From Caldimicrobium sp. (GTDB lineage Bacteria > Desulfobacterota > Thermodesulfobacteria > Thermodesulfobacteriales > Thermodesulfobacteriaceae), in assembly GCA_009903935.1 (NCBI GenBank), contig WYEG01000060.1, positions 1 to 40,260 on the forward strand: DNA of 40,260 nt. The letters are read 5' to 3'. Position numbers and translations under genes: made by a program. Of this stretch, positions 1,399-19,258 are shown piece by piece (position 1 is the first letter of the stretch; the number at the start of each line of letters is the position of its first letter). The notes under the pieces are model-generated. The model saw only the letters and a program-made list of their open reading frames with translations. It had not been told where the DNA came from and did no database searches.

Positions 1399-4300
1399 TT
1401 TCTTTGCCTCTTTTAAGGATTTTTAAGCTCAAAGCCTTTATCACATAGTAGAGAAGCGGGATAAAGAGGGGTCCAAAAAGGGTTGCAAAGAGCATACCTC
1501 CGACAACAGTCCAACCGATCACATGTCTACTCATGGCGCCAGCTCCTGTGCTTAGCGCTAAGGGGATGGCACCAGCGATAAAGGCAAAAGAGGTCATAAC
1601 TATTGGTCTAAACCTAAGGTAGGATGCTTCAAGGATAGCTGAGATGATGTCCAGGCCACGCCTGATACGCTCTTCGGCAAACTCCACAACAAGGATTGCA
1701 TTCTTTGCGGAAAGACCTACCAAGCTTATAAGCCCTACCTGAAAATAGACATCATTGGGAAGCTTCAAAAGGTTTAAGGTTAAGCTTGCCCCGAGTAGCG
1801 CAAAGGGAATGGAAAGGATAACCGCAACCGGTGCAAGCCAGCTTTCATAAAGGGCTACAAGGATAAGATAGACAAAGAGGACAGCCATGGCAAGGACGAC
1901 ATATCCTTTCTGCTGAGATAAAACCTCCTGCAAGCTTTGCCCCACCCAACCGATAGTATACCCAGGGGGAAGGGTAGCCTTAGCTACTTCCTCAACCACC
2001 TTTATAGCGTCGCCGGATGTGTAGCCAGGAGCAGGCTCACCAAGGATACGCACCGACTTAAACTGATTATGCCTCTCAAGGAGCTGCGGTCTGCTAAGGG
2101 GCTTAATTTGGATAAGGTTAGCAACAGGGATGGGAACGCCCTTTCTGTTCTTAACATAGACCTTGCTAAGGTCATCAAAGGCTTTACGGTAATCAGACTC
2201 GGCCTGAAGGTATACTCGGTAGACCCGGTCAAAGAGATTAAAATCGTTCACATAGCTTGCCCCTAAGGTCATGCTCAAAGTCTTATAAACATCGTCAACA
2301 GGGACCCCGTAGGCTTCAGCCTTCGTTCGGTCAACTATTACCTCAAAGTAAGGGTTTGAGGGATTGAAGGTTGTTCTAACTAAGGTTAGCTCCTTTCTTT
2401 CTCTAAGCTTGTTTATAAAACCTTGAGCAACCTCAAACATCTGCTTTATATCGCCACCAGTCCTATCCTCAAGATAAAGGTCAAACCCTCCTACTCTACC
2501 AAAGCCCATAATAGCCGGAGGACTTACTACAAAAAGCATAGCTTCCCTGACCTGGGAAAGCTCCTTATTTATCCTTTGGGCAAGGGCAAAGGAGGTTTCC
2601 TCCTTCTTAGTCCTTTTGTTCCAATCTATCAACCCTATAAAGCCACCTAAGGAATCTGTAGAATAAGTAAAACCTTGAAAGTCAAAGCCCGAGATGGCAA
2701 CATAACGATCAATGTAAGGGTTTTTCATCAAGATGTCCTCAACCTTGGATAAAACCTCCTCCGTTCGCTTAAGGGAGCTACCCGGTGGAAGGTTCCCGAT
2801 CAAGAAAAGCGCCCCTTTATCCTCAGTAGGGACAAGAGCCGTAGGTAGCCTTTTTATCAAAACATAGGTTAGAGGTAGAGTTAAAAGGAATAGCAAGACA
2901 AAGATTACAGGTCTTCTTAAGAGAAGCTTTACCCGTTCTACATAGTTTTCCCTTGCTCGGTTAAAGATTAGCTGAAAGAGATAAACTGGATAGATGGGGC
3001 GTTTGTGGAGCTCTCTTTCCCTAAGTAGAAGGGTACAGAGGACTGGGCTTAAAACTAAGGCTGTCATACCAGAAATAAGAACCGAGCTTGCTATAGCAAC
3101 GGCAAACTGCTGATAGAACCTTCCGATAAAACCACCAACAAGGCTTGCCGGTATAAAGACCGCAGAAAGCACAAGCACAATGGCGATAAGCGGGGAGGTA
3201 AGCTCTTCCATGGCTTTTAAAGTTGCTTCTTTTACGGGTAGCCCCTCTTCCATATGTCTTTCCACGTTTTCAACGACGATGATGGCATCGTCAACCACAA
3301 GCCCTATGGCTAAAATCAACCCAAAGAGAGTAAGAAGGTTTACCGAAAAGCCAAGAACATACATAACGATAAAGGCACCAAGGATGGAGACCGGAATGGC
3401 TAAGGTTGGAATTATCGTTGGGGCAAGTCTTCCAAGGAAAAAGTAGGTCACGATGACCACAAATAGAATGGCAAGCCCAAAGGTTATCCATACCTCCTTG
3501 ATGGATTCTTCAACAAAAACCGTGGGGTTGTAAGGAAAATAGTATTTAATGTCTGGGGGCCAAGTTTTGCTTAGCTCCTTTAGCTTTTCGTCAACAAGCT
3601 TTGAAACCTCAAGGGCGTTTGCCCTGCTTGTAAGAAAGATAGGAACGGGTAAGACCTTTTGCTTCTTAAAAAAGGAATTGCGATTAAACTGCTCAGAGGT
3701 TAGCTCAATTCTTGCTACATCCTTAAGCTTTAAGGTAGAGCCATCAGGCAGAACTTTAACCAATATCTCTTCAAACTGTTTAACCGAGGAGAACCTATCG
3801 CTACCCCTTAGAACATAGGTAAAGAAAGGTCTTTCTGTGGTTGGCTCATCCGCCAAGGCACCGGCGGTAAACTGTTGATTCTGCCGAGAAATTGCCTGAT
3901 AGACTTCAAGTGGCGTTAAGCCATACATAGAAAGTTTATCAGGTAAAAGCCAAACCCTTATAGAATATACCTTAGGGTCAACGAGGACAGCATCCCCTAC
4001 ACCGGGGATACGCTTCAACTCATCTATCACATTGATGAGAAGGAAGTTAGCAAGTTCAACTACATCCCTCTGCCCTCCTTCAGAGTAGAAGGCTACAGCT
4101 TTAAGCATGTCTGGGCTTTTTTCCTGGACTTCAACTCCAAGCCTTCTTACCTCCTCCGGAAGCCTCGGCAGGGCAAGCTGGACACGGTTGTTCACATCCA
4201 TCTTCGCTACATTTGGGTCCCAGCCAACCTCAAAGTAAACATTCAAGGTGTAAACTCCCGCTGAGGTTGAAGAAGAGACCATGTAGAGCATGCCGTCAAC

Positions 4301-15848: not shown

Positions 15849-16541
15849 TTAAAAAAGTAAGCTCTCAAGGTCTTGGGGAGTATAAGTTTTTATAGTTTCT
15901 CCGTCAAACAGCAGAACCTTCCAATCTAAATGTTTTAATCTTTCTAAAGGTTTGGAATAATCCTCCTTTTTCAAGCTCGTTCTTAGCGATTTAAACTGCG
16001 TTAAGGACCAAAGGGATAGAAAACTTACTGTGGGGTCTTCCGAACTTAAATGAAGAAGAAGATATTCATGCCCTGAAAGCTTGATGACCTCTTCTTCGTA
16101 TCTTTGAGCGAGCCTACCTATACCCCAGGCTAATCCTCTCTGAGCTGGCGGAAACTCCAAATAGTTCCCCTCCGGCCAAAGGTAGGAAAGATAGACCTGC
16201 AGATACTCCTTCTTTAGCTTTTCTGAATGAAAAAGGGCTTCTGCATAGCCTTCCCCCACACCCCATCCCATACCCCCAGACTCTTCATTTAGCATCCACA
16301 TAAGCCTACGGATTATTATCCTTGCCCTCTCCATTTCAGCTTCGGCAATCTTTGCCACAGTTACTCCAAAGGCATAAACAGCCTTCCATCGGACATGTTC
16401 ATCCTTGTGAAGGAAGGCACCGATGAAATAGCTAACGATAGAAGAGGGAGGGTAGACGCTAAAGGCTTGTGGAAGCTCCTTTAGGTCTACCCTCTCGAGG
16501 ATGTCTAATACTTCCTCTTTCTTGGGATGGTATTTAGGCAG
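15849..16541 (-). CDS. DVU0298-family helical-repeat (HEAT-like) protein, apparent CTG start
   Basis: Resembles Desulfovibrio DVU0298-type proteins, whose function is unknown. Recognisable stretches are RIIIRRLMWMLNEESGGMGW and PPAQRGLAWGIGRLAQRY, plus a helix pair KDEHVRWKAVYAFG typical of HEAT repeats. The first ordinary start in this frame (GTG at 16358) would cut the protein inside a helical repeat. Homologous-looking sequence continues upstream to 16541 with no ATG, GTG or TTG. A CTG at 16539-16541 lies seven bases after AGGAG, overlaps the end of the flavodiiron gene by 8 bases, and is preceded by an in-frame TAA, so it is the best start (230 residues). It ends the desulfoferrodoxin-rubredoxin-DsrE-flavodiiron run. 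A decayed ATG or a sequencing error are alternatives. Confidence 0.75.
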   Translation of the reverse strand: MPKYHPKKEEVLDILERVDLKELPQAFSVYPPSSIVSYFIGAFLHKDEHVRWKAVYAFGVTVAKIAEAEMERARIIIRRLMWMLNEESGGMGWGVGEGYAEALFHSEKLKKEYLQVYLSYLWPEGNYLEFPPAQRGLAWGIGRLAQRYEEEVIKLSGHEYLLLHLSSEDPTVSFLSLWSLTQFKSLRTSLKKEDYSKPLERLKHLDWKVLLFDGETIKTYTPQDLESLLF

Positions 16542-17733
16542 AACAGCTCTCCTTTATTTTCTTCGCCACAAGCCTCCCCAATTCTTCGCACTGAGCTAAT
16601 ACTTCTTTATCTGGAGCATACTTACAGCGTATGCCTTCATGAACAATTTCGGCTTGGATTTCCTGTAGATACTGATTGAGAAGCTTTACTGACTCACCAC
16701 TCCATCCGTAGGAACCAAAAGCCGCCCCAATCTTACCCCTTGGTCTCAAGCCCTTCATGTAGGTTAAGAAGCCTGAAACAGTCGGCAAAAGACCGTTGTT
16801 GAGAGTTGGCGACCCAAGGATTAAGCCCTTACTCTCCAAAACCTCAGCCATAAGCTCTGTTGGGTCAGAGACCGTAAGGTTTCTAAGCTTTACCTCAACC
16901 CCCTCTTTTGAAACACCCTCCATGATAGCGTAAGCCATTTTCTCCGTGCTCTTCCACATGGTGTCGTAGATGATAAGAACCACAGGCTCGCAGGTAAAGG
17001 AGCTCCACTTCTCATACAGGGCAAGTATATCTTTAATGTGCTTCCTTAAAACCACTCCATGGTCTGGGCAAATTATTTCAAACTCAAGCTTCATTTCCTT
17101 TACTGTTTGAAGAAGCTTTGCCACTTGCGGAGAGTATGGATAAACGATGTTGGCGTAGTATTTGCGAGTTTCTTGAATAAGCTCGCAATAATCTACCTCA
17201 TCATCAAACCTTCCGCTTGTTGCATAATGAGCCCCAAAGGCATCCTGAGATACAAGGATCTTATCTTCTGGGATGTAAGTCATCATGCTATCTGGCCAGT
17301 GGATCATCGGGGTTTCGATAAACCTTAAGGTCCTTTTACCGACCTTTACCTCATAGCCAGTCTTGACCTCCTCAAAGGGAAGGTCGCCCTTGTGAAAATG
17401 GGAAATAATACCCTGTTTTCCGTTCCTGGTGATAAAGATCTTCTCCGGTTTTATCACCTCTACGGCTCTTAAAAAGGCGCCAGCATGGTCTGGCTCAATG
17501 TGGTTCACTACAAGATAGTCCACCTTTGAAGGCTCAACGACGCTTGAAATCCTTGCCAAAAGTTCCTCTTCAAACCCATGCTTTACGGTATCAAAAAGGA
17601 CTATTTTTTCATCAATAAGGAGATAGGCGTTATAGGTAGTCCCTCTTGTGGTAGAGTAGCCATGAAAGTTTCTGACCTTCCAATCAATAGCCCCAACCCA
17701 ATAAAAATCTTCCTTAACCTTGATAGCTCGCAT
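16534..17733 (-). CDS. FprA-type flavodiiron protein (A-type flavoprotein, oxygen/NO reductase)
   Basis: Cytosolic enzyme that reduces O2 to water (and in some members NO to N2O) with electrons usually from rubredoxin. The N-terminal metallo-beta-lactamase-like half holds a full diiron ligand set: His78, Glu80, Asp82 and His83 (NHIEPDHAG), His145 (MIHWPDSM), Asp164 (SQDAFGAHY) and His225 (CPDHG). The C-terminal half from about residue 250 is a flavodoxin domain (LIIYDTMWKSTEKMA; GSPTLNNG; FGSYGWSGE). At 399 residues it is a standard class A protein without extra rubredoxin or reductase modules. A separate rubredoxin is encoded in the same operon, the expected electron donor. Confidence 0.96.
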   Translation of the reverse strand: MRAIKVKEDFYWVGAIDWKVRNFHGYSTTRGTTYNAYLLIDEKIVLFDTVKHGFEEELLARISSVVEPSKVDYLVVNHIEPDHAGAFLRAVEVIKPEKIFITRNGKQGIISHFHKGDLPFEEVKTGYEVKVGKRTLRFIETPMIHWPDSMMTYIPEDKILVSQDAFGAHYATSGRFDDEVDYCELIQETRKYYANIVYPYSPQVAKLLQTVKEMKLEFEIICPDHGVVLRKHIKDILALYEKWSSFTCEPVVLIIYDTMWKSTEKMAYAIMEGVSKEGVEVKLRNLTVSDPTELMAEVLESKGLILGSPTLNNGLLPTVSGFLTYMKGLRPRGKIGAAFGSYGWSGESVKLLNQYLQEIQAEIVHEGIRCKYAPDKEVLAQCEELGRLVAKKIKESCSA

Positions 17734-17755: not shown

Positions 17756-18100
17756 TTAAAAGGTAATTATGCTATACCCCTTTTCTATGAATGGTGCCAT
17801 GCCCGCGTGGTTTGCCATGTCTTCCAAAATTGTTAGCCCCTTTTCTTTAGCAAACTCATAGGTCCCAAACTTCATGGAGCAAGCTTTGCATACCCCGCCA
17901 ATTAAGTCCCTTTCTAAGCAGGATTTAAAGAGGGTATAAAAGGGCGTGTCCTCTTTGTAGAGCTCAGGGATTAAAGAGGTAGACTCCCCCTCTAACACCA
18001 CCTTAACCTCATAGCCAAATTTATTTAATTGCAAGGCATTTAGCAAAACATGAATAAAACACATGGGTTCCTTTCTAAAGGCAAAAAGGGCAAACTTCAT
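17756..18100 (-). CDS. DsrE-like small protein
   Basis: A 114-residue cytosolic protein of the DsrE/DsrF/YchN-like fold. Seen: an N-terminal strand MKFALFAFRKE, a helix CFIHVLLNALQLNKFGY, a strand VKVVLEGESTSLI, and a central GGVCKACSMKFG with two cysteines that could carry sulfur. Family relatives handle sulfur transfer or are uncharacterised; the residues do not prove a trafficking role. It lies between the rubredoxin and flavodiiron genes (22-base gaps on both sides), so it is probably cotranscribed with the oxygen-defence genes. Confidence 0.82.
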   Translation of the reverse strand: MKFALFAFRKEPMCFIHVLLNALQLNKFGYEVKVVLEGESTSLIPELYKEDTPFYTLFKSCLERDLIGGVCKACSMKFGTYEFAKEKGLTILEDMANHAGMAPFIEKGYSIITF

Positions 18101-18122: not shown

Positions 18123-18284
18123 TTAGTCTTCAGGGCTAAAGTCTTCCTTTGAAGCCCCGCAGACAGGGCAAGTCCAATCATCTGGAAGCTTTTCAAAGGG
18201 AGTGCCTGGGGGGATGTTCCTGCTTGGGTCCCCTGTCTCAGGGTCGTATACATAGCCACACACATTGCATCTGTATTTCTTCAT
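18123..18284 (-). CDS. Rubredoxin
   Basis: A 53-residue one-iron electron carrier beginning [15 protein letters not shown]. The four ligands are Cys6 and Cys9 (CNVC) and Cys39 and Cys42 (CPVC), with the typical [18 protein letters not shown] stretch before the second pair. AAAGGAGG at 18291-18298 precedes the ATG. It lies directly after desulfoferrodoxin and upstream of the flavodiiron gene, matching the rbo-rub-roo logic of sulfate reducers in which rubredoxin feeds both enzymes. Confidence 0.97.
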
Positions 18285-18308: not shown

Positions 18309-18713
18309 TTAGGCTTTTTGAGGTTCGCAGACCTGAGCACCCTCCCAATAGCCATGAAGATTACACCATTCCTTAGCCATTACTTTGCCTGCTTTAACCT
18401 CAAAGGTTGCTTCTGGCTCCATTCCGGGCTTCAAGAATTTGATGTAAACCCTGTCATCGTCGGTATGAAGCTCAATCCATTCAATGTAATGCTCCTCGGT
18501 CATGGCATGAGGCGCGCTACCAACCTTTACCCTGTAAGCGTCGCCATGCTTCTCGATAACCGGAACATGCTTTTCCACTGCGGCATCAACCGTGTTAGGA
18601 ACCTGCAAAACCATAGGCTTATTACAACAAACAAGCTGACCCCTTCCACCATGCATCACAAGCACGATGTTCCCGCAAATTTCACACTTGTAAAGCTGTA
18701 ACCTCTCAGCCAT
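18309..18713 (-). CDS. Desulfoferrodoxin (2Fe superoxide reductase)
   Basis: Reduces superoxide to hydrogen peroxide without making O2. The N-terminal desulforedoxin domain has Cys10, Cys13, Cys29 and Cys30 (CEIC ... CC), so this is the two-centre class. The neelaredoxin domain carries the active-site Glu47-Lys48 (EKHVPV) and ligands His49, His69 (PHAM), His75 (EEHYIEW), Cys117 and His120 (EWCNLHGYW). The 134 residues are near normal length. First gene of the oxygen-defence operon, with AAAAGGAGGTG before its ATG. A 95-bp gap with an inverted repeat separates it from merR upstream. Confidence 0.96.
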
Positions 18714-18808: not shown

Positions 18809-19258
18809 TTATAGGTTCTCATAAATGTCTTTTAATTCTCCCAAAACCTCTCTTAAGAGAAGCCTCAAATCTTGGGTGCTTGAATTTTTAGATGCGGTTT
18901 TCTCCGAATTTGAATGTTTAACCAATTCTGGAAAAAGAGTTAAAGGACTGGGAAGGTTTGGTGCCTTTGTTCTTTTTGTTTCTTGGGCTGGTTTCTCCTT
19001 TGTTTGGGGCTTTGTCTGTTTTTTTATCTCCCTTTTAACTGCCGAGAGGGTAAAGCCCTGGTCAATCAGCCTTTTTATTCTCTTTAGCGTTTCTATCTGC
19101 TCAAAGGTATAGTATTTTCGATTGGCTATTTTTACAGGCTTTATCTCGGGGATCTTCTTTTCCCAGTACTTGAGAATGTAAGGTTTGATTTTTAAGAGGG
19201 TTGCGACCTCGGAGGCTGGATGAAAATTTTTAGGTTCTGTCTGACCCTTCTTTTTCAT
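18809..19258 (-). CDS. MerR-family DNA-binding protein
   Basis: Predicted transcription factor of 149 residues. The N-terminal winged-helix domain runs to about residue 80: FHPASEVATLLKIKPYILKY, RKYYTFEQIETLKRIKRLI and DQGFTLSAVKREIKK. The middle is a Lys/Thr/Pro/Glu-rich linker (KQTKPQTKEKPAQETKRTK), and a short C-terminal helix (LRLLLREVLGELKDIYENL) probably dimerises it. There is no metal-binding cysteine loop, so metal sensing is unlikely. The start lies 29 bases inside the IHF-type gene. The order pheT - IHF - MerR occurs in many proteobacteria-like genomes. Targets are not evident. Confidence 0.9.
   Translation of the reverse strand: MKKKGQTEPKNFHPASEVATLLKIKPYILKYWEKKIPEIKPVKIANRKYYTFEQIETLKRIKRLIDQGFTLSAVKREIKKQTKPQTKEKPAQETKRTKAPNLPSPLTLFPELVKHSNSEKTASKNSSTQDLRLLLREVLGELKDIYENL

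Follow-up and report, generated by a model that had tools for sequence, protein, structure and literature searches.

A well-supported natural CUG start codon for a DVU0298-family gene overlapping a flavodiiron protein gene in Caldimicrobium-type bacteria

Background

Conserved use of a rare start codon is familiar in bacteria from infC, whose AUU start serves autoregulation by IF3. CUG is rare and weak as a start codon in E. coli and is left out of the usual start-codon sets; figures cited in PMC11497404 put it at 0.024% of bacterial initiation codons, and its expression in E. coli at about 0.86% of that from AUG. A survey of 36 genome triplets inferred 4 switches to CUG, 2 of them from AUG, 1 from GUG and 1 from UUG (PMC5622118), and a CUG with a Shine-Dalgarno (SD) sequence in dnaA formed a toeprint yet was unused in vivo (PMC8443254). 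Termination-reinitiation at overlapping genes with internal SD motifs has been demonstrated in E. coli and Haloferax (PMC6728339).

The candidate CUG start described here belongs to a DVU0298-family gene in the window, the whole 40,260-nucleotide stretch of contig WYEG01000060.1 from a Caldimicrobium sp. assembly (GCA_009903935.1) that was analysed. It has CUG initiation in common with annotated bacterial CUG starts, but differs from them in its conservation at genus level, despite diverged synonymous sites in the neighbouring gene, and in overlapping the last codons of that neighbour, which encodes a flavodiiron protein (FDP). Unlike the dnaA CUG, it is conserved and is accompanied by no other start. 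Gene pairs with ATGA or TGATG overlaps resemble this one in lying on the same strand, in having an internal SD and in placing the downstream start within the end of the upstream gene; their overlaps span 4 or 1 nt, whereas the present pair has an 8-nt NTG-NN-stop overlap with a CUG start, and its coupling is putative. With the infC AUU the locus shares a conserved rare start, but the DVU0298 start codon varies between genera and autoregulation is a property of infC.

Results

The CTG site and its reading frame

Features of the locus are collected in Table 1. On the minus strand the DVU0298 frame reads TAA AGG AGA GCT GTT CTG CCT AAA TAC... and remains open until a stop at 15851-15849. The in-frame TAA lies five codons ahead of the CTG, and the first ATG, GTG or TTG in the frame is the internal GTG, codon 62 counted from the CTG, so that the stretch upstream of it amounts to 61 of 230 codons (26.5%). 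The FDP gene, from which the DVU0298 frame is shifted by one base, ends ...AAG GAG AGC TGT TCT GCC TAA with its stop at 16536-16534, and CTG-CC-TAA constitutes the overlap of the two genes. An overlapping start and stop with an internal SD, as in a coupled pair, is thus present (CTGCCTAA, AGGAG at 7 nt), and the overlap recurs in relatives. The initial annotation, made from this DNA alone, had claimed a seven-base spacing between AGGAG and CTG, a CTG overlapping the flavodiiron stop, a 61-codon stretch ahead of the first usual start with no ATG, GTG or TTG back to the in-frame TAA, and the loss of a quarter of the protein from a start at the internal GTG; the minus-strand sequence agrees with it on each count. 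RNA folding predicts the AGGAG to be mostly unpaired; the CTG falls in a weak predicted stem, which counts against initiation there.

Table 1. Features of the DVU0298-FDP locus and the adjoining gene cluster (window coordinates)
Feature	Coordinates	Strand	Basis or remark
DVU0298-family HEAT-like protein gene	15849..16541	-	230 aa counted from CTG; NF045662 match, AlphaFold model
First conventional start, GTG	16356..16358	-	61 residues lost; within predicted helix 48-68
FDP gene	16534..17733	-	PF19583 (ODP beta-lactamase) and PF00258 (flavodoxin); last codons TCT GCC TAA contain CTG
Putative CTG start codon, DVU0298-family gene	16539..16541	-	aligns with CTG in 6 Caldimicrobium-type species and with GTG/TTG/ATG in other genera
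Shine-Dalgarno AGGAG	16549..16553	-	7 nt before CTG, within FDP gene (Lys-Glu codons)
In-frame TAA upstream of CTG	16554..16556	-	excludes any start farther upstream
114-aa conserved operon protein gene	17756..18100	-	no Pfam match
Rubredoxin gene	18123..18284	-	PF00301, synteny
Desulfoferrodoxin gene	18309..18713	-	PF01880, PF06397, synteny

The gene order is desulfoferrodoxin, rubredoxin, the 114-aa protein (which by eye we take to be DsrE-like), FDP and, last, DVU0298. Those CTG species that were checked retain this oxygen-defence cluster, and most other relatives have all or some of it; at a guess from gene context, the DVU0298-family protein might act as a scaffold or partner in oxygen defence.

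The N-terminal 61 residues belong to the family

Searched against NCBIfam, the 230-aa product hits NF045662 (DVU0298 family) with 154.1 bits (E 3.8e-45) against a curated cut-off of 75 bits, residues 11-222 aligning with positions 2-204 of the 213 in the profile, which confirms the DVU0298-type assignment made initially. The whole protein matches; what is unusual here is the start codon only. Because the match begins at residue 11, the family boundary lies just past the CTG and not at the internal GTG. Homologues were found in 45 of the 60 relatives searched, the close ones typically aligning from about query residue 7-9. Before the GTG the N-terminal part of the family is present, residues 11-61 being covered both by the profile match and by an alignment of 18 homologues in which L15, I40, F43, W52 and G59, all upstream of the GTG, are invariant and K8, P31, S37, A42, H45, V50 and A54 nearly so. 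Family-like sequence upstream of the GTG, as reported in the initial annotation, was therefore upheld; an alignment of these 61 residues with homologues had been proposed there as a check. The homologue starts line up with the CTG, not with the internal GTG.

An AlphaFold2 model built with the 18-homologue alignment has a mean pLDDT of 93.7 for the 230-aa protein and predicts helices at residues 8-17, 20-29, 32-42 and 48-68, with block-mean pLDDT of 94-98 over residues 11-80 and with residues 1-10 as the sole loose portion of the N-terminal region. A start at codon 62 would consequently delete three predicted helices and enter the fourth midway. The predicted fold is mostly helical and HEAT-like; a fold search of the PDB returned generic HEAT/armadillo matches (TM about 0.5), and a PDB sequence search with the protein returned nothing useful. 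A single paper mentioning DVU0298 places it in a table, apparently on CO-dehydrogenase genes, and offers no usable function.

Start codons in relatives

Junctions were compared in about 35 genomes, among them the window genome (G000) and the Caldimicrobium-type group (g5). At the orthologous position G000 has CTG, as does every g5 species with the gene (six in all); groups g3, g4 and some of g8 have GTG, the rest of g8 as well as g10 have ATG, and G024 has TTG. Public records with loci of identical junctions include ones from Caldimicrobium and Thermodesulfobacteriaceae. A TTG close to the FDP stop is present in most other g6 species, and in several g6 species the FDP stops ahead of the DVU0298 start, which is TTG. 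Across the 22 species with overlapping genes the start codon nearly always sits at the FDP gene end as NTG-NN-stop; in G006 the FDP is lengthened by two extra codons at the overlap. Of the seven CTG species, G000, G013, G016 and G019 have an in-frame stop directly upstream, which makes CTG the only NTG option there; G004, G007 and G010 carry an in-frame TTG or GTG farther upstream, so CTG is not forced in those three. These alignments indicate that the CTG start is kept across a genus-level clade of hot-spring bacteria, a pattern not visible from a single sequence.

Two g6 homologues, from T. hydrogeniphilum (L039:2950-3702) and a Thermodesulfatator MAG (L044:2971-3666), have a DVU0298 frame whose start lacks ATG, GTG and TTG; the candidate start is an ATT in each, preceded in L044 by an SD-like AGGAGG.

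Codon constraint at the end of the FDP gene

Met and Trp codons offer little or no choice of third base. In the strongest test of the start position, 396 FDP codon columns were searched for an invariant third base across the 22 overlap species; 12 columns qualified, of which 11 were Met or Trp and the twelfth was the codon supplying the NTG. All 22 of 22 species have NNT here, and only in G006 is the codon not the penultimate one; six combinations occur at its first two positions (TC, GC, GG, AG, AA, GA), and the codon after it starts with G in every species listed. That the sole degenerate FDP column with a fixed third base encodes a variable amino acid is precisely the pattern that an NTG start in the +1 frame requires. 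The FDP codon and the start change together: AAT or GAT (Asn/Asp) gives ATG, GGT (Gly) or AGT (Ser) gives GTG, TCT (Ser) or GCT (Ala) gives CTG, and in G024 TTT gives TTG. G010 keeps the CTG start even though its FDP has Ala (GCT) rather than Ser (TCT) at this position. The FDP genes of the seven CTG species have pairwise four-fold identities of 0.32-0.48, with the third base invariant in 8 of 120 four-fold columns (5 of them T), and given this divergence residual similarity is unlikely to explain the T of CTG. As judged from these alignments, the DVU0298 start codon is dictated by the FDP penultimate codon, and the comparison excludes a chance origin of the CTG and the upstream frame.

Evolution of the start and decay of the FDP gene

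In a tree from both proteins (FDP and DVU0298), G000, g5 and G024 form one clade with full support. The placement of G024 inside this clade is weak (40%), and CTG may therefore have been gained once and later replaced by TTG in G024, though this is not proved. The FDP gene of G024 (L033) is broken by frameshifts and stops, with the DVU0298 start still in the FDP tail; in G014 (L039, L016) it is reduced to a C-terminal remnant, preceded by a rubredoxin gene; G020 (L014) has only a short C-terminal FDP match; and for G027 no FDP match was recorded. The DVU0298 frame is open in all four despite the damaged or missing FDP, suggesting that FDP translation is not always required and that FDP activity is not needed for retention of the gene.

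Screen for other unusual starts and the initiation apparatus

A screen for unusual starts compared about 0.58 of the 1.56 Mb of G000 with 1.6 of the 1.81 Mb of G004; the raw output was mostly antisense frames, and in its place a set of 444 non-overlapping matched genes was used. No further conserved CTG start was recognised among these 444 genes of the partial G000/G004 screen. Two other outliers remained once noise had been discounted by eye, a CDP-alcohol phosphatidyltransferase gene and a prfB-like frame. Recognised by eye, the latter is presumably prfB, the known RF2 frameshift gene, and its recovery serves as a positive control. The CDP-alcohol phosphatidyltransferase gene (PF01066; L084:3533-4451, plus strand, G000 contig C19) has 36 codons without ATG, GTG or TTG, and an ATT 8 nt after GGAGG aligns with the ATG of G004, a possible ATT start.

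Two further frames of G000 deserve mention. A hydrogenase-small-subunit-like frame on the minus strand of L182 (plus-strand coordinates 3102-3831) opens at a TAG and is interrupted relative to G004, being either a pseudogene or an assembly error. A cytochrome-like frame in L069 (contig C4; minus strand, plus-strand coordinates 18870-19233), which has a G004 homologue, is a candidate selenoprotein: it reads through a TGA common to G000 and G004 (GHAIPDG-TGA-PTPNRLVLEVTA), and shortly after that TGA a 27-base stretch with GGTC, identical in the two genomes, might fold into a small hairpin. A tRNA-Sec gene is present in G004.

Two possible changes to the initiation apparatus were rejected. The tRNA-fMet of G000 and G004 keeps three G-C pairs in the anticodon stem, which speaks against an altered initiator tRNA, and the G004 16S rRNA ends with CCTCC, which speaks against an altered anti-SD.

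Discussion

We consider it very likely that the DVU0298-family gene is translated from the CTG at 16541-16539. The start position is conserved among homologues and no alternative AUG, GUG or UUG is compatible with the conserved N-terminus, so that a natural CUG start appears well supported, an unusually strong case within a known rare kind.

Were the true start instead the GTG at 16358, the first conventional start in the frame, the similarity upstream of it would be a relic or chance. Such a start would drop 61 residues with five invariant positions that homologues in about 35 genomes keep, would fall inside predicted helix 48-68, and would leave the upstream NTG signature unexplained, and we find it scarcely credible. 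We give equally little credence to a correctly placed start region with another near-cognate codon in use (GTT 16544, or ATC at codon 14); very low-level initiation at other codons is possible, but only the CTG aligns with the GTG, ATG and TTG of relatives and has an SD at 7 nt, and the ATC sits inside predicted helix 8-17. The window was drawn from a 68-contig draft genome, in which the real codon might be ATG or a frameshift might mask an upstream ATG. A base error at the CTG, for which the initial annotation advised a check, is excluded by a CTG at the same position in six other species, one of them a closed, single-contig genome (G004), and we regard the chance of a sequencing or assembly error at the locus as negligible.

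A programmed +1 frameshift at the FDP stop, yielding an FDP-DVU0298 fusion and dispensing with initiation, finds support in two observations: where the overlap has the form NTG-NN-stop, DVU0298 lies in the +1 frame relative to FDP and is open across the stop, and the lineage contains a frame resembling prfB, itself known for its +1 frameshift. However, the FDP stop varies (TAA/TAG/TGA) and follows differing codons, none of them slippery (GCC, GCT, GGT, GGC, GTC, GTT, GCA, GGA), and the conserved slippery codon and stop context of the prfB type are not found. Several g6 species, moreover, end FDP ahead of the DVU0298 start and use TTG, and a frameshift cannot account for an NTG in 22 of 22 species. 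We therefore judge it very unlikely.

If the CUG start is accepted, the initiator fMet-tRNA would read CUG as fMet, tolerating the first-base mismatch. The strong SD and a ribosome ending FDP at the overlapping stop would place a 30S or 70S on the CUG, by termination-reinitiation or by coupled initiation, and CUG initiation is probably coupled to FDP termination. A small HEAT-repeat protein would then be made in low amounts tied to those of FDP, a low level being probable because CUG output is only 0.86% of that from AUG in the figures that PMC11497404 cites. The C of the CTG would have arisen as the FDP penultimate codon turned into Ser TCT or Ala GCT, the overlap handing that base to the start codon. 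Rather doubtfully, we suggest that the weak CUG may be kept on purpose, as a start dependent on coupling that holds DVU0298 at a low, fixed ratio to FDP in the Caldimicrobium clade, the overlapping codon pair co-evolving the FDP penultimate residue with the initiation strength of its neighbour and so generating the ATG/GTG/TTG/CTG allelic series.

Conclusions

Ordinary gene finders would lose a quarter of this protein, and annotations of DVU0298-family proteins from this clade probably lack 61 residues or carry a false upstream extension. The putative CUG start in seven species is backed by an overlapping-gene signature that is independent of any gene model. With ATG, GTG, TTG and CTG at one orthologous site, the locus would provide a natural series and a direct means of measuring the cost of a CUG start, of testing whether coupling through the overlap makes up for that cost, and of studying the constraint that a shared codon places on two proteins.
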